Positions 1 through 15,201 of a stretch of 32,203 bases of DNA are shown here, one piece after another. The DNA comes from Chloroflexota bacterium (GTDB taxonomy: Bacteria; Chloroflexota; Dormibacteria; Dormibacterales; Dormibacteraceae): the NCBI GenBank assembly GCA_005887735.1, contig VBII01000035.1:1-32203 (forward strand), given 5' to 3'. Made by a program: the position numbers and the translations under genes. The first letter of the stretch is position 1. Each line of letters starts with the position of its first letter. The notes under the pieces are model-generated. The model ran no database searches. It saw only the letters and a program-made list of their open reading frames with translations, and was not told the DNA's origin.

Positions 1-260
1 CCCGCAACCCCCTCGACCACGGGCGCCGAGGCACCGATCTGGCTGTGGCAGCTCGCGCACCGTCCCCCGCGCAGCGCGTAACCGACCACGGGCAGGAGGT
101 CGATTGCGTTGAGCTCCCGGCCGCAGGCGCGGCAGTGCGATCGCGGCCGGATGATTGATTCACCCCTGGGCAGCCGATCCGCCACCAGGTTGATGAAGCT
201 GCCCAGCCCCAGCCCGACAAGGGCGAGGTACACGGTCACAAACAGAGCTATGGATGGCAA
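1..260 (-). CDS. pilD: Prepilin peptidase (PilD/GspO type), N-terminal part, runs off window
   Basis: This is the N-terminal end of the membrane aspartyl protease that cleaves and N-methylates type IV prepilins; the rest lies beyond position 1. It is absent from the ORF track. I read it from TTG at 260, which has an ACAGGA ribosome site 7-8 nt upstream. The translation opens with a hydrophobic segment, then GLGSFINLVADRLPRGESI, which matches the family signature GSFLNVVIxRLP. Two Cys-X-X-C pairs follow (CRAC and CASC), forming the cytoplasmic zinc-binding loop seen in many prepilin peptidases. The catalytic aspartates would lie downstream and cannot be checked. It follows the major pilin on the same strand, with a hairpin in the 77-nt gap, so it is probably the last gene of the pilus operon. 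Family identification is firm; the exact start is inferred. Confidence 0.85.
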   Translation of the reverse strand, partial: MPSIALFVTVYLALVGLGLGSFINLVADRLPRGESIIRPRSHCRACGRELNAIDLLPVVGYALRGGRCASCHSQIGASAPVVEGVA

Positions 261-337: not shown

Positions 338-796
338 TTACTTCGGAGCGCAACCGCTGATTGCCGCACCGCCTGAATCCGATCCGATGCCATTCCCCCC
401 GGATACGCCCGAGATCCTGCCCGCGCTGTCCCACTCATAGAAGAATTGAGTGGCTCCGTTCCGCGTGTAGTTCGGGTTGGTGTCCGACGGGGTCGTGGTG
501 TAGAGCTTGACGCTGCCGGTGGTCCCGGTCATGTCCTGGGTGTACTTGGCCTGCTCCGGAACGGTGCTGAGGTTGTTGTTCGCCATGTAAGCGTCGAGCG
601 CCGCCTGTACGGTCTTGTACTCGGAGTTGCATGCCTCCACGTTGGCGTGCGTCGTGAGGCCGACCAGGCTGAGGGTCACGATCGCGGCAAGGATGCCGAG
701 GATCGTCACCACCACGAGGAGCTCGATCAGCGTAAAGCCCTGCTGGCCCTTGCGTCCCCGCAAGTTCTTGTTCAACCAACCGTAGAGACCTGCCAT
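338..796 (-). CDS. pilA: Type IV major pilin-like prepilin
   Basis: A 152-residue prepilin, probably the main fibre subunit. A charged leader of about 20 residues ends in Gly before FTLIELLVVVTILGILAAIV, the classic class III signal: cleavage after G, N-methyl-Phe at +1, Glu at +5, and the hydrophobic helix that anchors the subunit and packs in the pilus core. The body has one Cys near the helix end (EACNSEY) and one near the C-terminus (SGCAPK), which could form a pilin disulfide. The ATG at 796 has an AAGGGG ribosome site. It is separated from the upstream pilus genes by 164 nt of repeat-rich DNA, so it probably has its own promoter. Major rather than minor pilin is inferred from the separate transcription unit and the adjacent pilD. 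Confidence 0.9.
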   Translation of the reverse strand: MAGLYGWLNKNLRGRKGQQGFTLIELLVVVTILGILAAIVTLSLVGLTTHANVEACNSEYKTVQAALDAYMANNNLSTVPEQAKYTQDMTGTTGSVKLYTTTPSDTNPNYTRNGATQFFYEWDSAGRISGVSGGNGIGSDSGGAAISGCAPK

Positions 797-960: not shown

Positions 961-1128
961 CTAGTGCAGTCCCAGGCAGGCCGAGACTGCCGCCCCAAAA
1001 AGCAGGATGGAGCCGAACAGCGAGGCGCAACCCCTCCGCCGAACCGCCTCCAGCTTCGTGTCTCCGATGAGGTTGAGGTCTGCCAGAGGCCTGCGCCGTT
1101 CCTCTTGCTGCGGTCGCTTACGCTTCAT
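961..1128 (-). CDS. Very small PilN-like single-pass membrane protein
   Basis: A 55-residue ORF missing from the track. The ATG at 1128 overlaps the TGA of the preceding PilM fusion by one base and has a GGAGG ribosome site, so translational coupling is very likely. It begins MKRKRPQQEERRRPLADLNLI, highly basic, followed by one hydrophobic helix (LFGSILLFGAAVSACLGL), then TAG. The placement directly after PilM, and the pattern of basic tail, an 'LNLI' motif and one transmembrane helix, match the start of PilN, which binds PilM through exactly this N-terminal motif. The normal periplasmic coiled-coil and ferredoxin-like domain are missing, and no continuation is obvious in the other frames. 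It is either a minimal PilM anchor or a truncated pilN. No pilO follows. Confidence 0.65.
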   Translation of the reverse strand: MKRKRPQQEERRRPLADLNLIGDTKLEAVRRRGCASLFGSILLFGAAVSACLGLH

Positions 1129-3551
1129 CAGCTCCTCCGCATGAGCAGGCCCAGGCAGGCCAGATAGGTCGAATGGCGGACATTCGGTGGCACTCGCGGC
1201 GGCACTGGCAGAAGCATCACCGGCTGGCCGATGAGCCCAGCCAGCTCTGTCAGTAACTGCGAAGGCAGCGCTTGCTCGCTCGAGACGAACACCGGGGCCG
1301 CCCGCCCGAAGTCGCCGTTGGACTGACGCCGGTAGAAACGGAGCGCCGTCCGGAGCGCCGGGGCTAGAGCGGCGGCCGCATCGTCTCCCATCGGTCCGTT
1401 GACCCTGAAGCTGTGCCAGATCTGCGGCACGTGGTCATCGATCAGGAAGATTTCTGCCGGATCCGACGACAGGTCAAGGACGACGCATGCCGGCGCCGGC
1501 ACGGCCCTGGCCACGCTCGCCGACTTCAGCTCGACCACCATCGGCTCTAGGCCGGCCAGCTTGACCGCCTCGGTGATGTTCTTGACCAGCCCCTGATCCC
1601 AGGCTGCGGCGTAGACGATGCGCTCCTGCACTTGCGGGTCGGCCAGCTGCGTCCAGCGAGTCGCCATTTTCTGCGGGTCGAATGACAGCTCCCGGGCGAT
1701 GGCGGCATCGACATCGCGAGGTGTCGATGTTGGCGCGAGGTGCAGGATCCTGAAGGTGGCGACGGAATCGCTTGCCGCAACCAAGGCTCGAGTCTGGGTG
1801 ATCTCAGCCCGAGCCAGCAACGGCTTGAGCGCCCGAGCCACGCCGGCGGGATCCGCCACCTTGCCGCCGACCGACGCGCCATCCGGAACAACGGAGGATG
1901 CACAGCGCATCTCGCCACCCATGGTGCCTTCAACGACTCGAATCGAAGCACCGGACAGGTCGACGGCCAGGCGAGTCGCTATTTTGCGGTCTCCGACCTC
2001 GACGTTCGCCCAAAGGTGTGGATTTGCTCCCGAACACGTGGGGGGCGAGGTCGTGATGCACGCAGAGATCACAGCATCGCGTGCGTTCAGCGGAACCAGA
2101 TAAAGGCGATTGCCCAGCGTGCCCAGGTAGATGCAAATGCCGGTAGTGCAGGCTCCAACCTCCACGGAGCTGCCGGCAGCGCCCAGATCGCCGTACCGGT
2201 TGACTTCCACCATCTGGCCGCCCTGGTTTTGGACCTCGTGGACGTAGCCATCGTCAGCGCCGAAGTACCAGTTACCGGCGCCGTCTGTCGCGGGCGTCGT
2301 GTCGATCGCCGAACCAGTCCCCGCATAGCTTGGAACGGGGTTCAACGACGAGTTGAAGAGGTGGAGCGCCCCGTCCTGGGCGCCGACGCCGAAAAGACTG
2401 CATGAACCGCACCAGTACGGCGCGTCGGCGATGCCGCCGCCAACCTGCTGGCTGTTCAAGAATGTCGGCCCGTTCGACCCGATCCGGTAAAGGGCGACGC
2501 CGCCTCCGCCGAACGTGATCGCCAGCCCGGCAGGTAGGGTCGCGCTTTGAAGCGCTATGCCCGAGGCGTTCGCCCACGGCAGCGGCCAGCTCCCCGCTGA
2601 CTCAAGGCCGTCCTTTGGATCATAGGTGTATTCGACGAGGCGGCTCGAGCTCGCGGTCGAGACGACGGCGTAGATATAGTCGACGACCTGGCCGCACCCG
2701 CTAGTGCAGGGGAATGCAATGGGTCCCGCCACAACCGGCCGGCTGCCGGAAATCGGTGCGCTGGACTTCGAAGCGCAGGCCGTACCGGCGAGGTCATAGG
2801 CCTCGAGGTTGGCGCCGTCCGCGAAGTAAACGAGGCCGCGCAGCGACGGGCTGGCCGCCGGCTGTGTCGCCGGGGCTGCGCCCGAGCTCGTCGTTATCAC
2901 GCAAAGCTGCGATGGGGGCGCGAACGAGGTGTCGTCAATCGTGACGTTCAAGCACGATCCTTCCATCGGACAGCTCGGGCTGCTGGACAGAGGGATGACG
3001 TCCAGGTACTGGCCCGAGTGTCCCGGCCTGGCCAAAACCAGCGGCGGCGCGGTTACGGCCCCGTCGAGGTCAAGCGACCACCGTTCCGTGGCAGAGCCGA
3101 ACGGAAAGTCGAAAACGTTGCCAGCAGCGTCGCCGACGATGTAGTCGTTGAGCTGGCCGAGCTGCACGTGCACTCCGTCGACGTTGAATGGTTCGGACGA
3201 GCTCTCGATCTGCTTGAACTGAGGTGACCTGACGTCCACCGTGGGCCAGCAGCTCAGGTACGTCGCCGAAGCTGTGAGGTTGTTCAACGTCGCGGTCGGA
3301 AGGGAAGGGCATGGAGCGTTGAGCTGGGTGGCCTGCAGGCGGCTGAGGGCAAGCTCGATCGCGGAGTTGTCGGTCGCCTGGTTGGCGACTCGGTTGAGCA
3401 TGGTGTGCGAGACAAGGAAATTCGTGCTCAGCTCGGTCATCAGAGCGCCCGAGATGATGGCGATGAATGCGGTCATGATCAGCACGCCGCTCAGCACACT
3501 GCCTCGCTGCGAACGCCTGCGATCCTTCAACAGAGCGAGGATCGCGGTCAT
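1128..3551 (-). CDS. Minor-pilin/beta-propeller/PilM in-frame fusion
   Basis: An 807-residue ORF combining three parts. Residues 1-45 resemble a PilX-type prepilin start: basic leader, QRG, then the hydrophobic VLSGVLIMTAFIAIISGAL. Residues 50-520 are Cys-containing, Gly/Ser-rich and propeller-like, with repeats such as DGAGNWYFGADDGYVHEV and GLVYFADGANLEAYDLAG resembling PQQ/WD blades. From about residue 524 the sequence (LAVDLSGASIRVVEG, then VVLDLSSDPAEIFLID) looks like the actin-fold ATPase PilM, which is cytoplasmic. The ATG at 3551 overlaps the upstream stop (ATGA). The topology is contradictory: a pilin helix exports what follows it, while PilM must stay inside. A GGAG sits 8 nt before an ATA codon at 1982, where PilM would naturally begin. 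Separate initiation there, or loss of a stop and start by a small deletion, is plausible. Confidence 0.75.
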   Translation of the reverse strand: MTAILALLKDRRRSQRGSVLSGVLIMTAFIAIISGALMTELSTNFLVSHTMLNRVANQATDNSAIELALSRLQATQLNAPCPSLPTATLNNLTASATYLSCWPTVDVRSPQFKQIESSSEPFNVDGVHVQLGQLNDYIVGDAAGNVFDFPFGSATERWSLDLDGAVTAPPLVLARPGHSGQYLDVIPLSSSPSCPMEGSCLNVTIDDTSFAPPSQLCVITTSSGAAPATQPAASPSLRGLVYFADGANLEAYDLAGTACASKSSAPISGSRPVVAGPIAFPCTSGCGQVVDYIYAVVSTASSSRLVEYTYDPKDGLESAGSWPLPWANASGIALQSATLPAGLAITFGGGGVALYRIGSNGPTFLNSQQVGGGIADAPYWCGSCSLFGVGAQDGALHLFNSSLNPVPSYAGTGSAIDTTPATDGAGNWYFGADDGYVHEVQNQGGQMVEVNRYGDLGAAGSSVEVGACTTGICIYLGTLGNRLYLVPLNARDAVISACITTSPPTCSGANPHLWANVEVGDRKIATRLAVDLSGASIRVVEGTMGGEMRCASSVVPDGASVGGKVADPAGVARALKPLLARAEITQTRALVAASDSVATFRILHLAPTSTPRDVDAAIARELSFDPQKMATRWTQLADPQVQERIVYAAAWDQGLVKNITEAVKLAGLEPMVVELKSASVARAVPAPACVVLDLSSDPAEIFLIDDHVPQIWHSFRVNGPMGDDAAAALAPALRTALRFYRRQSNGDFGRAAPVFVSSEQALPSQLLTELAGLIGQPVMLLPVPPRVPPNVRHSTYLACLGLLMRRS

Positions 3552-4072
3552 GGGTTCATCCGCGGATCAAAACGGAAAGTCTGCGATTCGCTGTAGGCCT
3601 GGACCGTGACCGTGAGGCTGACTACGACAGTCGCATTCGTGTCGACGAACCATGAGAACGCAGTCACGTTGGTGGCCGCATGCCCCGTCGCGTCGGTGGT
3701 GGCAACAGTTCGGTCGAGGAAGTTGGAGCCGTCCCAGGCGTAGCTCACCTGGAACGAAGCGGGGACCGGCGTCGAGTTGCTGACCTGGAGTCCGCTCAAC
3801 ACCAGCGGCTGAGTGGTGCATGGGCTCGACGGCACACAACCGGTGTCGCTCGGGGCAGCGCTCCGGGCGAAATCGTCGTAAGCGAAGTACTCGAAGTTGC
3901 GGATCTGGCTGCTCGCTTCGACCCGGCTCGAGGCGATGGTCGCGGCTCGCCAGGATGTCAGCAAGACAGAGGTCAAGGCGGACATCAGCAGCGCACCAAT
4001 GGCCACGGCGATGATCAGCTCGACCAGCGTGTAGCCGTTCTGGCCCTTCATACGGGACCGCGCACCCCTCAT
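3548..4072 (-). CDS. Minor type IV prepilin (PilW-like)
   Basis: A prepilin of about 174 residues. I start it at ATG 4072, whose ATG overlaps the upstream TGA (ATGA), rather than at the longer ORF-track start, which would read through the previous gene. The leader MRGARSRMKGQNG ends in Gly before YTLVELIIAVAIGALLMSAL, with Glu at +5 and a hydrophobic helix, so it is processed by prepilin peptidase. The body contains a Cys pair (GCVPSSPC) and beta-rich sequence. Its size, and its position between another minor pilin and the PilX-like fusion, suggest the PilW/GspJ class of priming minor pilins that sit at the pilus tip. The exact class is uncertain. Confidence 0.85.
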   Translation of the reverse strand: MRGARSRMKGQNGYTLVELIIAVAIGALLMSALTSVLLTSWRAATIASSRVEASSQIRNFEYFAYDDFARSAAPSDTGCVPSSPCTTQPLVLSGLQVSNSTPVPASFQVSYAWDGSNFLDRTVATTDATGHAATNVTAFSWFVDTNATVVVSLTVTVQAYSESQTFRFDPRMNP

Positions 4073-4515
4073 CGATTGATCTTGTAAACCGAAACTGACG
4101 AACCGACGGCCGCGCTGGACGGCCAGGACTTGACGGAGATCGTCCAAACTTGGACTGCCCCTGGTGACGATGCCAGCCACTGCCAGCCGACGTCCGCTCG
4201 CAGTGTGAACGGACCGTTTGGGCAAGCAGCCTGGTAGCCGCCGGCTGAGGCCGGGCTGCTCGGATCCTCGGTCGCGAAGCAATCCGAATAGGGCGCGACT
4301 GAGGAGTCGAACGCGCTGGCGCTGATCGCCTCCATCTCGTACTGGAGGCTGGCTTGCGCCGCCGTATTCCGCTTAGCAATCGTTGAGTCGAGCAGGCCGG
4401 TGCTCAGCGTTCCCACGACCAGCGCAAGCGCGAGGCTCGCTATCACAAGACTGACCAAAAGCTCGACGAGCGTCGTGCCGGACTGTGCCCGGCGCCGATC
4501 CTTCATGCGGGGCAT
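4069..4515 (-). CDS. Minor type IV prepilin (PilV/GspI-like)
   Basis: A 148-residue prepilin. The leader MPRMKDRRRAQSG precedes TTLVELLVSLVIASLALALVVG: Gly at -1, Glu at +5 and a hydrophobic helix, the usual prepilin peptidase substrate. Thr at +1 is less common than Phe but typical of minor pilins. The ATG at 4515 overlaps the TGA of the pilC downstream half by one base, so the two are translationally coupled. It is probably a minor pilin that primes pilus assembly with its two downstream neighbours. Assignment to the PilV/GspI type rests on size and order only. Confidence 0.85.
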   Translation of the reverse strand: MPRMKDRRRAQSGTTLVELLVSLVIASLALALVVGTLSTGLLDSTIAKRNTAAQASLQYEMEAISASAFDSSVAPYSDCFATEDPSSPASAGGYQAACPNGPFTLRADVGWQWLASSPGAVQVWTISVKSWPSSAAVGSSVSVYKINR

Positions 4516-5692
4516 CAGTGGACTTGTTTGAGGAGCCCGTACATGGGCAGGATGACCGATACCGCCACAAATCCCACCGCGCCGCCGACAGCAATCACAA
4601 GCGACGGCTCCATGAGCGCGATCATGTTCCGGACCTTGTAGTCCATCTCTTCGGCCAAGAAGTCGGCGATCTGCTCGAGGCTCGAGTCGAGGGTTCCGGT
4701 TTCTTCGCCGACGCGGATCATGCGGATCATCATCGGCGCGAACAAGCCCGTCGCGTCCAGAGGGGCCGAGAAGCCGTCTCCGGTCATCATTCGATCCTTG
4801 ACCGAATCGAGTCCGCGGCGATAGCGGATGTTGCCGGCCGACGCGATCGCGACCTCGAACGTCTGGCTGATCGGTATCCCCGCCGTGAGCATGGTGGCCA
4901 GCGTTCGGGTGAAGCGCTCGATGATGCTGTAGACCACTATGGTCCCGATCACCGGCAAGCGCAAGATCGCGTAATCCCAGAACACCCGGCCAGGCGGGCT
5001 GCTCATGAGCACCAGTACGCTGACGATGACGACGAAGAGCACGATCACGATCTCAATCCGCCACGTTTGGGCGAACGTGCCAACCCCGAGCAGGATCCTG
5101 AGACGAAGTTAGGAAGCACGAAGACGATCAAAACCGTGCAGACCGAGACCGCCAGCACGAGAATCACCGCGGGGTAGATCATCGCGCTGCGTAACTTCTT
5201 CAGGGCGGTGTCCTGGCGCTGCAGATAGGCGGCAACCTGGATCAGCACACGGTCGAGCGTCCCGCTGTATTCGGCCGCTCGCACCATGTCCACGTACAGC
5301 TCGTCGAAAACGCTCGGGTGACGTCCAATGGCTGACGAGAACGCTTCGCCCGCCTCCAGGTCCGCACAGATGTCCTCGAGCGCCGCGCGGAAGGCGCCTG
5401 AGCTTGATGCTCCTTGAAGGAGCTTGATCGCGTCGGTGATCGGCACGCCAACCCTGATGAAGGTTGCAAGCTGCCGCGAGAAGAGGATCAGGTCTTGGGT
5501 CTTGACCCGAAAGAAGGTCGGAAACTGCCGGTAGATCCAGCGCCATCCGCTGCGCGCCGGCCGCACCGACACGACGCGGAATCCGCGATCGATGAGGTCG
5601 CGGTGCACGGCAGCGGCGGACTCGGCGGTCGCGACGCGCTCTTCGAGCTTTCCGCGCGGCGAGTAGGCCCGATAGGTGAATCTGCTGACCAC
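4515..5692 (-). pseudogene. pilC: PilC/GspF inner-membrane platform protein, broken by deletion and frameshift
   Basis: PilC is the polytopic platform that couples the assembly ATPase to the growing pilus. The N-terminal half (215 aa) runs from GTG 5692, with GGAGGG just upstream; the track's longer start overlaps pilB. It carries the first GspF domain (FSRQLATFIRVGVPITDAI; AAEYSGTLDRVL) and ends after VLPNFVS in a shifted tail at a TGA (5045-5047). The C-terminal half (177 aa) carries the second GspF domain (TRTLATMLTAGIPISQTF; VGEETGTLDSSLEQIA). It can be read upstream of its GTG (5048) as RILLGVGTFAQTWRIEIV in the other frame. Family members have about 14 residues (…LF..LG..LPLPT) between these points, so around 40 nt and the frame are lost near 5099. 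The GTGA overlap could allow split expression, but deletion, or an assembly fault, explains the data better. Confidence 0.85.
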
Positions 5693-5703: not shown

Positions 5704-7623
5704 TCAGATGATGTAGACGCTGCGCATGACTTCGGACACAGTCGTCACGCCGGCTGCGATCTTGGCCCAGGCGTCGGCGCGAAGAGGCAGCATTCCCTCG
5801 GCGACCGCGGCGCTCATGATCTCGGCGTGGCTCGACTTGGCGATCACAAGCCGCTTCACCTCGTCGGACAGGGTCAGCACCTCGAACACGCCGATGCGGT
5901 CGAAATAGCCCGTCCCGTTGCACCGGCTGCATCCCTGCCCCTTGTAGAGCTCGTGGGGAGCCGCCACGCCGACCGACGCGGCGAAATCGATGTCCTCCTT
6001 GGAAGGTGCGTACGCAACGCGGCAGCCGTCGCAGGTTTTCCGCACGAGGCGCTGCGCGACGATTGCGATTACAGAGGACGCGATCAGGAAGCCTTCGATC
6101 CCCATGTCCGTGAAGCGCAAAAGCGCACCCACGGCATCTGTCGCGTGGAGCGACGACAGCACCAGGTGCCCGGTCAGAGCTGACTGGACTGCAATCTCCG
6201 CGGTCTCGCGATCCCGGATCTCGCCGACCAGGATGATGTCCGGGTCCTGGCGCAGGATTGCCCGGAGGCCGTTCGCAAAGCTGATGTCGGCCAGCTTGTT
6301 GATCTGGCTCTGATTGATGTGGTCGAACATGTATTCGACCGGATCCTCGATGGTCATGATGTTGCGAACCTGGCTGTCAAGCTCGTGGATCGAGGCATAG
6401 AGCGTGGTCGTCTTGCCGCTGCCGGTCGGACCGGAAACGATCATCATCCCGTAAGGCGAGTGGAGCAGCCGGTGATACTCGTGGTAGGCGCCTTGCGAGA
6501 ATCCGAGCTGAGGCAGGGTGATGAGCGAGCGGCCGCGGTCGAGCAGCCGCATCACGAGCTTCTCTCCCCAGATCGTTTCCATGGTCGCCACCCTGACGTC
6601 CAGCTCGCGGCCGTCGACGTTGACGCTGATCTGCCCATCCTGGGCTCGCCTCCGCTCGACGATGTTCATGCCGGCCATGATCTTCACCCTGGACGACAGC
6701 GCAGCCGCGGTCGCGCTGGGCAGGTGAGCCATGTCCTGCAGCACGCCGTCGATCCTGAAGCGGACTCGCAGGAAGTCCTTCTGTGGTTCGATGTGGATGT
6801 CAGACGCGCGATCGCGCAACCCCTGGGTGATCAGAAGGTTGACGATCTCGACCGCGGGTGAGTTCGAGGTGACTTTTGAGAGCTCGAGAGTCATCACTCG
6901 GTCGAACTGCGCTTGGGGACGCGATTCGTTGAGCGTCTTGGCGGCGACGTTGAGCCGTGGGTGCATGTCGTGGATGCGCGTCAGGTTCAGCAGGATGTCT
7001 GAAGGCGCTGCGATGTAGGGAGCCACCGCTAGTCCGGTGATCAGGCGAATGTCGTTGATCACCATGAGGTTGCTCGGGTCGTTCATCGCGACGGAAAGAT
7101 GGCCGTTGTCACGGCGAATCGGCAGCACCAGGTTGCGTCGTGCAAAGTCCTCTGGGACGAGCCGGGCAATGTCCGGATCGACGTCCAGGTGCTTCAGGTC
7201 GGCCACTGGAGTCTCCAGGTGTGCGCTGAGGACCACTGTCATGTGGTCCTCATGGACGGCGCCCTGGTTCACCAGCAGCGTCCCGAGCGGGGCGTATGCC
7301 AGGCGCTGAGCATTGAGTGCTCGGGTGAGCTGCTCTTCGGTGATCAGGCCTTCGGCCAGGAGGACCTGGCCAATCCGTTCTTGGAGCGCCGGCGTCTGGC
7401 GCGGGCGGGCGCTCGCCTCGACTGCCACGCCGTCATGTTGGCTGGTCCGGGCATCGTTGGTAATGGGGATTTGCCCAACCACGTGGGCAGTTTGTCCCGG
7501 CTTCAGGACGCTCCGATCCCGCCTCGCCGGCTCACGCGCCCTGGTCTTGCTATCGGTGGGAAGGTCATTCAGGGGCCCAGCCTCGGCGGCTAGGTTCCCG
7601 TCAGACCCATTCGCGCCGCCCAC
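5704..7623 (-). CDS. pilB: Type IV pilus assembly ATPase PilB
   Basis: A 639-residue hexameric extension ATPase. A basic, disordered N-terminus is followed by an MshEN-type domain (about 78-210; IGQVLLAEGLITEEQLTRAL), which in relatives can bind cyclic di-GMP. The GspE core follows: Walker A GPTGSGKTTTLY (about 398), Asp box TIEDPVEY, Walker B-like DIILVGEIRDRETAE (about 461), His box TGHLVLSSLHATDA, and two Cys-X-X-C zinc pairs (CDGC about 530, CSRC about 567). Its presence together with pilC, pilM, pilins and pilD defines the operon. The GTG start at 7623 has GAGG 7 nt upstream and overlaps the 3' end of the regulator gene, implying coupling. No pilT retraction ATPase is in the window. Motifs appear intact. 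Confidence 0.95.
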   Translation of the reverse strand: MGGANGSDGNLAAEAGPLNDLPTDSKTRAREPARRDRSVLKPGQTAHVVGQIPITNDARTSQHDGVAVEASARPRQTPALQERIGQVLLAEGLITEEQLTRALNAQRLAYAPLGTLLVNQGAVHEDHMTVVLSAHLETPVADLKHLDVDPDIARLVPEDFARRNLVLPIRRDNGHLSVAMNDPSNLMVINDIRLITGLAVAPYIAAPSDILLNLTRIHDMHPRLNVAAKTLNESRPQAQFDRVMTLELSKVTSNSPAVEIVNLLITQGLRDRASDIHIEPQKDFLRVRFRIDGVLQDMAHLPSATAAALSSRVKIMAGMNIVERRRAQDGQISVNVDGRELDVRVATMETIWGEKLVMRLLDRGRSLITLPQLGFSQGAYHEYHRLLHSPYGMMIVSGPTGSGKTTTLYASIHELDSQVRNIMTIEDPVEYMFDHINQSQINKLADISFANGLRAILRQDPDIILVGEIRDRETAEIAVQSALTGHLVLSSLHATDAVGALLRFTDMGIEGFLIASSVIAIVAQRLVRKTCDGCRVAYAPSKEDIDFAASVGVAAPHELYKGQGCSRCNGTGYFDRIGVFEVLTLSDEVKRLVIAKSSHAEIMSAAVAEGMLPLRADAWAKIAAGVTTVSEVMRSVYII

Positions 7624-8291
7624 AGCATTGCCTCTGTTCTGCCGTGCAGCTCCAGCTTCCGATAGATCTTCGCCAGGTGATTGCGCACGGTCTTGTGGCT
7701 GATTCCTCGGTTCGCCGCGATGGTTGGAATCGATTGCGCCTGTCCGATCATGGCCAGGATCGCAAGCTCGGTCGGGGAAAGTCGACCGGCGAACGAGTCG
7801 GATTCGGGTGTGCGAAGTGTGTTCGGCCTCTCGAGCAGACGAACCAGAAGCCCTGAGCCGATCGCCCTGTGGCCCGACACCACCGCTCGCACCCCCACCA
7901 GGAATTCGTCGAGCGCCGAATTCTTGCTGAACGCGCCCGCGACATTCATGGCAAGAGCCGCCGCGAGCTCGGCTTCATCACCATCGTCGCCCAGCAGAAC
8001 GACCGGCGTGCCGCGGCCTTCCGAGGCGAGGGCGCGGACGAGCTCGACCCCAGACAGCGGTTCGGCCCGCAGCTCGCAAAACACAAGGTCAATCGCCTCG
8101 GTCCTTGCAATCTCCAACCCGCGATCCGACCGCGAAGCGGTGATGACGTGGGCAGAGAGGGGCGGCGCTTCCAACAGGCTTGCCAAGGCGGCGAGGAAAA
8201 GAGGCTGCCTGTCGATGAGCAGTGCCTCCACACGCTCGACCGCGCGCCGTTCGCTGCCTGGGCTGAGCGATGGCGCCGGGACCACGATCAC
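7590..8291 (-). CDS. LuxR-family regulator with a degenerate (Glu) receiver domain
   Basis: A 233-residue protein with a receiver-like N-terminal domain (about 20-135) and a LuxR/NarL helix-turn-helix (about 168-225; LSPTELAILAMIGQAQSIPTIAANRGISHKTVRNHLAKIYRKL). In the receiver the usual acidic pair is reduced to one Asp (LLIDRQPLF). The phospho-acceptor position (normally VLMDL) reads LVFCELRAEP, with Glu where Asp is expected; Ser-Lys (AFSKNS) is kept. It is therefore likely phosphorylation-independent or permanently 'on', since Glu can mimic phospho-Asp. It is the first gene of the pilus operon and overlaps pilB by 34 nt, so it probably controls pilus expression. The GTG start at 8291 has no clear ribosome site and may be leaderless. 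The target is inference. Confidence 0.85.
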   Translation of the reverse strand: MIVVPAPSLSPGSERRAVERVEALLIDRQPLFLAALASLLEAPPLSAHVITASRSDRGLEIARTEAIDLVFCELRAEPLSGVELVRALASEGRGTPVVLLGDDGDEAELAAALAMNVAGAFSKNSALDEFLVGVRAVVSGHRAIGSGLLVRLLERPNTLRTPESDSFAGRLSPTELAILAMIGQAQSIPTIAANRGISHKTVRNHLAKIYRKLELHGRTEAMLWAARMGLTGT

Positions 8292-13451: not shown

Positions 13452-14173
13452 CCGCTGAATGCACGCTGCGCTGGGCCTATGACACGTTCGCGCGCGTCGC
13501 GATCGTCGCGAGCTTCCAGGCCGAATCGTCGGTGATCATCGACATCGCGTCGAGAATCCGCCCTGACCTGCGGGTGCTGACGCTGGACACCGGCCGGCTG
13601 CCGCCCCAGACGCACGAAATGATCGACCGCGTCCGCGATCGCTACGGAATCGAGGTCGAGGTCATCACCCCAGATCCGGATGAGGTCACGAAGATCGTCG
13701 CGGCGCAGGGCAGCCACCTCTTCTACAGGTCGGTCGAGATGAGGCGGCTGTGCTGCGAGGTGCGAAAGTCGCGGCCGCTCGACCTCGCGCTGAGCGGCTA
13801 CGACGCCTGGGTGACGGGCCTGCGCCGCGAGCAGGCGGCGACGCGCGCCAACACGCAGGTCGTCGCCCTCGATCCCGAGCACCACGGAATCACCAAGATC
13901 GCTCCGCTGGCTTCCTGGTCGAAGGCAGAGGTGTGGGACTACATCCGCGAGCACGAGCTGCCCTACCACTCGCTCTACGACCACGGCTATACCTCCATCG
14001 GCTGCGCTCCCTGCACGCGCGCGACTGTCCAGGGCGAGGACGAGCGGGCGGGCCGCTGGTGGTGGGAGCAGAACGAGGTCAAGGAGTGCGGGCTCCACTT
14101 CCCTGCGAGCGGGGAAGGTGACCCGGTTCGCGAAGCGAGCCCGGTCGGATGGGGAGGTCCAAGCGCTCAGTGA
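13448..14173 (+). CDS. cysH: Assimilatory APS reductase (CysH family, iron-sulfur type)
   Basis: A 241-residue thioredoxin-dependent reductase that converts adenylyl sulfate to sulfite and AMP. The nucleotide-binding PP-loop region shows VAIVASFQAESSVIIDIA. Two Cys pairs, RRLCCEVRK and IGCAPCTRA, are the 4Fe-4S ligands that distinguish APS reductases from PAPS-only enzymes. The catalytic Cys lies in the usual C-terminal ECGLHF motif. With a Cys-Cys pair present, APS should be the preferred substrate, which makes the APS kinase domain encoded downstream partly redundant for this pathway. The ATG at 13448 overlaps the sulfite reductase stop (ATGA). About 25 C-terminal residues after ECGLHF look non-conserved and overlap the next gene. 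Confidence 0.92.
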   Translation: MTAECTLRWAYDTFARVAIVASFQAESSVIIDIASRIRPDLRVLTLDTGRLPPQTHEMIDRVRDRYGIEVEVITPDPDEVTKIVAAQGSHLFYRSVEMRRLCCEVRKSRPLDLALSGYDAWVTGLRREQAATRANTQVVALDPEHHGITKIAPLASWSKAEVWDYIREHELPYHSLYDHGYTSIGCAPCTRATVQGEDERAGRWWWEQNEVKECGLHFPASGEGDPVREASPVGWGGPSAQ

Positions 14174-15201
14174 GATATGCGGGCGCGGTTATTGCGGTCC
14201 TTCTCTTCACTGCGTGCGGCGCACCGGTCCAGTCGGCGTCCCCCAACGATGACGGGCCCCTCACGCTGCGCCTGGGCTACTTCCCGAACCTGACGCATGC
14301 ACCCGCGCTGGCCGGCCTCGGCAAGCGATTCTTCGCGAGAGCACTCGGCAGCTCGGTGACGCTGGAGACGCACACGTTCAATGCCGGCCCCGACGCCGTG
14401 ACGGCGATCCTGTCCGACTCGATCGATGCCACGTTCATCGGACCCAATCCGACCACCAACGCGTTCGCCCAATCGCACGGACAGGCGATTCGCGTCATCG
14501 CCGGCGCAACTTCAGGCGGCGCCCTCCTCGTGGTCAAGCCCAGCATCACATCGGTCGCTCAGCTGAAAGGAAAGAAGATCGCTGATCCCCAGCTCGGCGG
14601 CACGCAAGACGTCGCCCTGCGTTGGTTTCTCAAGAACAACGGATTTCGCAGCGACACAGCAGGCGGCGGCGACGTGAGCGTGCAGCCTCAGGACAACTCG
14701 CAGACGCTGCTCGGGTTCAGGCAGGGACAGATCGATGGGGCATGGGTGCCGGAGCCATGGGCGAGCCGCTTGATCGTCGAAGGTGGCGGCAGGGTCCTGG
14801 TGGATGAGCGCGACCTGTGGCGTCAGGGAAATTTCGTGACCACCAACCTTGCCGTCCGAACCGACTTCCTTCGCGCACATCCGAAACGGGTGAAGGCCCT
14901 GCTGGAAGGGCTGTACCAGGCGGTCGCGTACCTGAGGTCGAACCCGAACGACGCGCAGATGGCGGCAAATGACGCGGTGGCTCAGCTCACCGGCAAAAAG
15001 CTGGCCGCCGCCGTCGTCGCCGCGGCCTGGCCGCACATGACCTTCACGCTCGACCCGCTGGCCCCGACGCTGAAGGCGTCGGCCGCCCACGCCCACGCGG
15101 TGGGGTTGCTGGGCAATGTCGACCTTCACGGGCTCTACGACCTCGCGCTGTTGAACCAGGTCCTCGCCGAGCACGGCCAGCCGCGAGTCCAGGGCTTGTG
15201 A
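14149..15201 (+). CDS. ssuA: Sulfonate/taurine/nitrate-type ABC transporter binding lipoprotein
   Basis: A 350-residue extracellular solute-binding protein of the SsuA/TauA/NrtA group. The basic start (GRSKRSVR) and hydrophobic stretch end at TAC, a lipoprotein cleavage site. Conserved features include LRLGYFPNLTHAPALAGL, the A-x-G-x-x-D-A-type region VTAILSDSIDATFIGPNPTTNAF, LKGKKIADPQLGGTQDVALRWFL and GAWVPEPWASRL. The placement between sulfur-reduction genes suggests it imports an organosulfonate, or perhaps sulfate itself, since no CysPTWA-type importer is present. ATG 14149 overlaps cysH by 25 nt; GTG 14170, overlapping the cysH stop as GTGA, is an equally possible start. The substrate cannot be read from sequence. 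Confidence 0.88.
   Translation: MGRSKRSVRYAGAVIAVLLFTACGAPVQSASPNDDGPLTLRLGYFPNLTHAPALAGLGKRFFARALGSSVTLETHTFNAGPDAVTAILSDSIDATFIGPNPTTNAFAQSHGQAIRVIAGATSGGALLVVKPSITSVAQLKGKKIADPQLGGTQDVALRWFLKNNGFRSDTAGGGDVSVQPQDNSQTLLGFRQGQIDGAWVPEPWASRLIVEGGGRVLVDERDLWRQGNFVTTNLAVRTDFLRAHPKRVKALLEGLYQAVAYLRSNPNDAQMAANDAVAQLTGKKLAAAVVAAAWPHMTFTLDPLAPTLKASAAHAHAVGLLGNVDLHGLYDLALLNQVLAEHGQPRVQGL

Follow-up and report, generated by a model that had tools for sequence, protein, structure and literature searches.

An apparent pilin-propeller-PilM fusion gene in a Dormibacterota pilus cluster is very probably a product of metagenome assembly

Can a pilin helix, a beta-propeller and PilM, a protein of the cytoplasm, belong to one natural polypeptide? 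The question is raised by the 32,203-nucleotide stretch of DNA analyzed here (the window; contig VBII01000035.1 of a Chloroflexota bacterium), where one long open frame starts with RGSVLSGVLIMTAFIAIISGALMTELS and carries a pilin helix and a beta-propeller in its first ~520 residues, followed by PilM at residues ~527-807. The first-pass annotation of this DNA had found in the frame a contradictory topology, with a prepilin helix that should send the PilM part across the membrane, and had offered as explanations a natural fusion of unexplained orientation, a separate initiation of PilM at an ATA codon, or the loss of a stop and a start through a small deletion. The single frame and its three components are as that annotation described them, and the window sequence is unambiguous (zero N). 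Judged against related genomes, the observation is correct as sequence, but neither one natural gene nor an AUA start follows from it.

The frame forms part of a pilus cluster (Table 1) in the order response regulator, PilB, PilC, two minor prepilins, propeller pilin, PilM, a small membrane protein, the major pilin and PilD. In relatives pilT adjoins pilA on the opposite strand, while in the genome of the window it is a fragment on another contig; the type IVa pilus parts found are PilB, PilC, PilM, PilD, prepilins and PilT.

Table 1. Pilus cluster features in the window and the two genes predicted within the fused frame.
Feature	Positions	Strand	Evidence or remark
Prepilin peptidase gene pilD, 5' part, runs off the window	1..260	-	PF06750, E=2.9e-24
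Major prepilin (GspG/ComGC-like)	338..796	-	N_methyl
Small PilN-like membrane protein gene, 55 aa	961..1128	-	overlaps the pilM stop (TGATG); dN/dS 0.15-0.23; kept in relatives
Fused frame as assembled	1128..3551	-	ATG start, 807 aa, zero internal stops
Predicted pilM; start codon and first codons missing	1128..1985	-	TIGR01175, E=1.2e-9; PilM fold of the orthologue
Join with ~63 nt missing	1980..1998	-	holds GGAG (1994-1991) and ATA (1982-1980)
Predicted propeller-carrying minor pilin gene; last ~17 codons and stop missing	1995..3551	-	tails of relatives
Minor prepilin, PilW-like position	3548..4075	-	N_methyl
Minor prepilin, PilV-like position	4069..4515	-	N_methyl
pilC/gspF, interrupted at 5100 by a loss of 40 nt	4515..5692	-	two T2SSF halves
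pilB/gspE assembly ATPase	5704..7623	-	family match
LuxR-type response regulator	7590..8291	-	family match

PilM is an actin/FtsA-like nucleotide-binding scaffold protein, distinct from the pilus motor ATPase. The earlier description of the C-terminal part as a core pilus ATPase was thus misplaced, the motor ATPase of this cluster being PilB (5704-7623). Its assignment to PilM itself is borne out, although the family scores fall below the curated cut-offs (TIGR01175, 37.7 bits against 133; PF11104, 13.3 against 27). A profile search of PDB sequences returned PilM chains at E=6e-8, and the model of the orthologue from the closest relative (G007; pLDDT 89) has a PilM/FtsA-like fold whose ten best matches among solved structures are all PilM, including 5eoy, 5eou, 2ych and 3jc8, with E-values down to 1.4e-18. 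The protein thus shares its predicted fold with the type IVa PilM of Thermus (2YCH) and Pseudomonas (5EOU/5EOY) and lies in a pilB-pilC-pilM-pilA-pilD cluster; it differs in its length, about 285 residues against ~350, and in its scores below the cut-offs of both families. On modeled fold and position, we classify it as a divergent PilM.

The organization of the two genes in relatives bears directly on the nature of the frame. Among 41 genomes searched, several of the same genus and family carry the gene pair, and a PilM-profile search of 42 family genomes added more; the boundary between the genes could be read in 11 related genomes, on which all counts concerning the fusion are based. In every one of these the propeller gene ends in a conserved tail (...PRLWAxVEVGxxGSPQTVHVxGWSYYSP/G or similar) followed by a TGA, TAA or TAG stop, and none of the 11 contains a propeller-PilM fusion. 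The usual pattern is a pilM start at a GTG a few nucleotides past the propeller stop or at a nearby ATG, and in two of the 11 the pilM start overlaps the end of the propeller gene in another frame. Gene structure in relatives had been named beforehand as the comparison that could overturn the fused reading; it yielded a normal propeller stop and a separate pilM start, with GTG used as often as ATG. Between conserved flanks, the closest relative has 99 nt and the window 36 nt. What the window lacks, ~63 nt, covers the last part of the tail, the stop codon, the spacer and the opening codons of pilM; 63 being divisible by three, the propeller and pilM frames join into one.

Four other long frames were considered as fusions and rejected. 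Those of 1008, 894 and 969 residues in G019, G005 and G004, which might have indicated a recurrent fusion, have an intergenic stop in the DNA in each case, and the 859-residue frame of G053 is an overlapping frame with the propeller stop present. A scan of contigs with the fused protein as query gave zero matches; a scan with the PilM alignment gave nine loci.

The propeller protein is best judged from its intact counterpart in the closest relative (539 aa), whose model (mean pLDDT 76) has a 54-residue helix at positions 19-72, predicted at low confidence, a propeller from about residue 113, and only strands after the pilin-type helix; its best matches among solved structures are propellers of the YxaL/BamB type. 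The protein has no match to PF07963 (N_methyl) or to the PilY1 family, and position 5 of its prepilin motif, RGSVLSGV, is not the usual Glu. Modular pilins are a widespread, established type, to which the combination of pilin and propeller adds one more architecture; the model agrees with the modular plan, in which an additional folded module comes after an N-terminal pilin helix. The protein resembles the S. sanguinis modular pilins PilB and PilC in bearing a bulky C-terminal module on a pilin helix, and the PilY1 tip adhesins in its PilY1-like propeller; it is set apart by uniting propeller and pilin helix in one chain, by the missing PilY1 and N_methyl matches and by its YxaL/BamB-type structural neighbors. 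A position at the pilus tip has been proposed for modular pilins and for PilY1 (PMC8179133), and by analogy of architecture the propeller pilin would be placed there too.

The loss at the propeller-pilM boundary has counterparts elsewhere in the assembly. We aligned the window to the syntenic contig of the closest relative, which is about 81-88% identical, and found clean losses of 24-71 nt, most of them frame-breaking. The losses are specific to the window's assembly. In the window, pilC is short by 40 nt relative to G007, G011 and G013; relative to G007, a LuxR regulator has lost 34 nt of its DNA-binding part, a sulfite reductase 38 nt and an amidohydrolase-like gene 31 nt. Later in this contig an ABC transporter gene lacks 24 nt, in frame, and an ABC ATPase lacks 37 nt; on another contig of this genome 71 nt are gone from the AAA part of lon. 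The loss sites lie at window positions 5100, 11373, 11983 and 24889, at L035:9523 and 11640, and at L041:7470. G011 and G013 match G007 at pilC and at the LuxR gene, and control comparisons of these two genomes with G007 revealed zero frame-breaking losses of 24 nt or more. The ratio dN/dS is 0.05-0.06 on both sides of the pilC break and 0.10 in the sulfite reductase, values that point to strong purifying selection and are unlike those of decaying genes, so that both look functional. One observation speaks against assembly error: over ~27 kb on two other contigs from this genome, zero frame-breaking losses of this kind occur, so that such errors appear to be patchy; lesion rates were sampled on four contigs. 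The closest relative seems to carry errors of the same kind, for it lacks 25 nt in an aldehyde dehydrogenase (C111 near 9214, L076) that is intact in the window's genome (L041:3666). Separately, a 1.1-kb stretch of the window (14098-15197) with an NMT1-like substrate-binding protein gene is absent from the syntenic place in G007.

Taken as a whole, the sequence comparisons lead us to regard the fused frame as very probably an assembly error and not a natural gene. The locus would then be a normal type IVa pilus gene cluster, belonging to a soil Dormibacterota bacterium, with a gene for a propeller-carrying minor pilin followed by a separate pilM, from which the metagenome assembly would have dropped the ~63 nt that held the end of the propeller gene, its stop and the pilM start. 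The pilin helix would insert the propeller pilin and leave the propeller outside the cell, and PilM would be made separately in the cytoplasm, so that the contradiction in topology disappears. The earlier proposal that a small deletion had removed a stop and a start therefore stands as a description, given the ~63 nt missing relative to all 11 relatives, but the loss most likely belongs to the assembly rather than to the organism: the genes are separate in every spanning relative, and similar losses affect unrelated genes of the same assembly. Local assembly errors in metagenome-assembled genomes are known as short mis-joined stretches that yield wrong protein-coding sequences, and they are suspected to be prominent with IDBA-UD (PMC7111523), the assembler used for most of a grassland soil project (PMC6784897). 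Several relatives, for example CF_81 (VBGP01000007) and CF_140, have sample names in the style of that project and are named as Chloroflexi/Dormibacterota metagenome genomes, which makes it likely that the window's genome comes from the same project. The losses described here resemble the published errors in being short mis-joins that alter coding sequences; the published errors are usually recognized by missing read support, whereas ours were recognized by comparison with relatives.

A recent, real in-frame deletion of 63 nt, which would have fused the genes into a probably non-functional product in a pilus locus starting to decay, is unlikely. Such a decay would accord with the break in pilC of the same locus and with the unambiguous sequence of the window, but it sits poorly with losses of the same kind in lon, sulfite reductase and other conserved but unrelated genes, with the strong purifying selection on both halves of pilC, and with the ends of most other losses, which by eye have no obvious microhomology. 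Far less probable still is a functional fusion in which PilM is attached to the propeller pilin in an unusual membrane orientation: the frame is open and in phase, and PilM does join the small PilN-like membrane protein in G019 and G034, yet no spanning relative has the propeller fusion, the conserved propeller tail would be lost, and the pilin helix would put PilM outside the cell. Separate translation of PilM from the ATA at 1982 we consider scarcely credible. The GGAG, the 8-nt spacing and the ATA are present precisely as the first-pass annotation gave them, but the ATA aligns to an internal PilM codon (TTA, Leu, in G007), the GGAG lies within the join itself, and the relatives start pilM at GTG or ATG. 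If the frame is indeed an assembly error, a false lead is removed: neither an AUA-started PilM nor an inside-out PilM fusion needs explaining, and the record is not citable as one. More generally, a short loss from a draft metagenome genome can produce a convincing fusion gene if the number of missing nucleotides is divisible by three, and protein predictions from this assembly should be treated with care.

The small gene directly after pilM, on which the first-pass annotation of the frame is silent, matters more than the fused frame and merits a separate study. In the loci of the family it has 55-70 codons and encodes the motif ERRR...E(I/V/L/M)NL(L/I), with small variations and RRGC in most, and a single hydrophobic segment of helix length with almost nothing after it; its counterpart in another family of the class is 48-52 codons long. 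Its dN/dS (Table 1) indicates purifying selection, and in G019 and G034 the protein is fused to the C-terminal end of PilM. In G023 the motif is an exact NLLP, which we take to be that of classical PilN. The small protein has no Pfam or PDB sequence match and no match to a PilN model, so its reading as PilN draws on position, motif, topology and the fusions. PilO (PF04350) was found in none of the 41 genomes, although very divergent copies could escape the search, and PilN (PF05137), with the same proviso, in one; this sole match lies on a contig (L075, G021:C199) that carries MshI/MshJ-like genes and looks proteobacterial, and is probably contamination of the bin.

From these sequence data we lean towards a class-wide type IVa pilus without PilO, in which PilN would be reduced to 48-70 residues, a putative cytoplasmic PilM-docking tail and one transmembrane helix. 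This short PilN is in some genomes fused to PilM, and the inner-membrane ring would then have no extracytoplasmic part. C. difficile has a PilM-PilN fusion, and in the monoderm model S. sanguinis neither PilN nor PilO could be dispensed with (PMC6916266). Like PilN, and like the C. difficile fusion protein, the small protein of this class is encoded directly after pilM, or joined to it in G019 and G034, and has NL(L/I) before one predicted transmembrane helix; it differs in having no extracytoplasmic domain, no PilO partner among the genomes searched and no match to any PilN model. Our literature search found no report of PilO-less or truncated-PilN pili, and nothing on the topic for type IV pili in Dormibacter. 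A reduced PilN, if true, would show which part of PilM-PilN-PilO is dispensable for type IVa pilus assembly. The small gene was located in the window, at L066:4855-5022 and L070:4843-5052, and on L014, L010, L023 and L031 (G019). In isolate CF_115 (L068:1019-1100), the gene as assembled has a premature stop, reached after some 26 codons.
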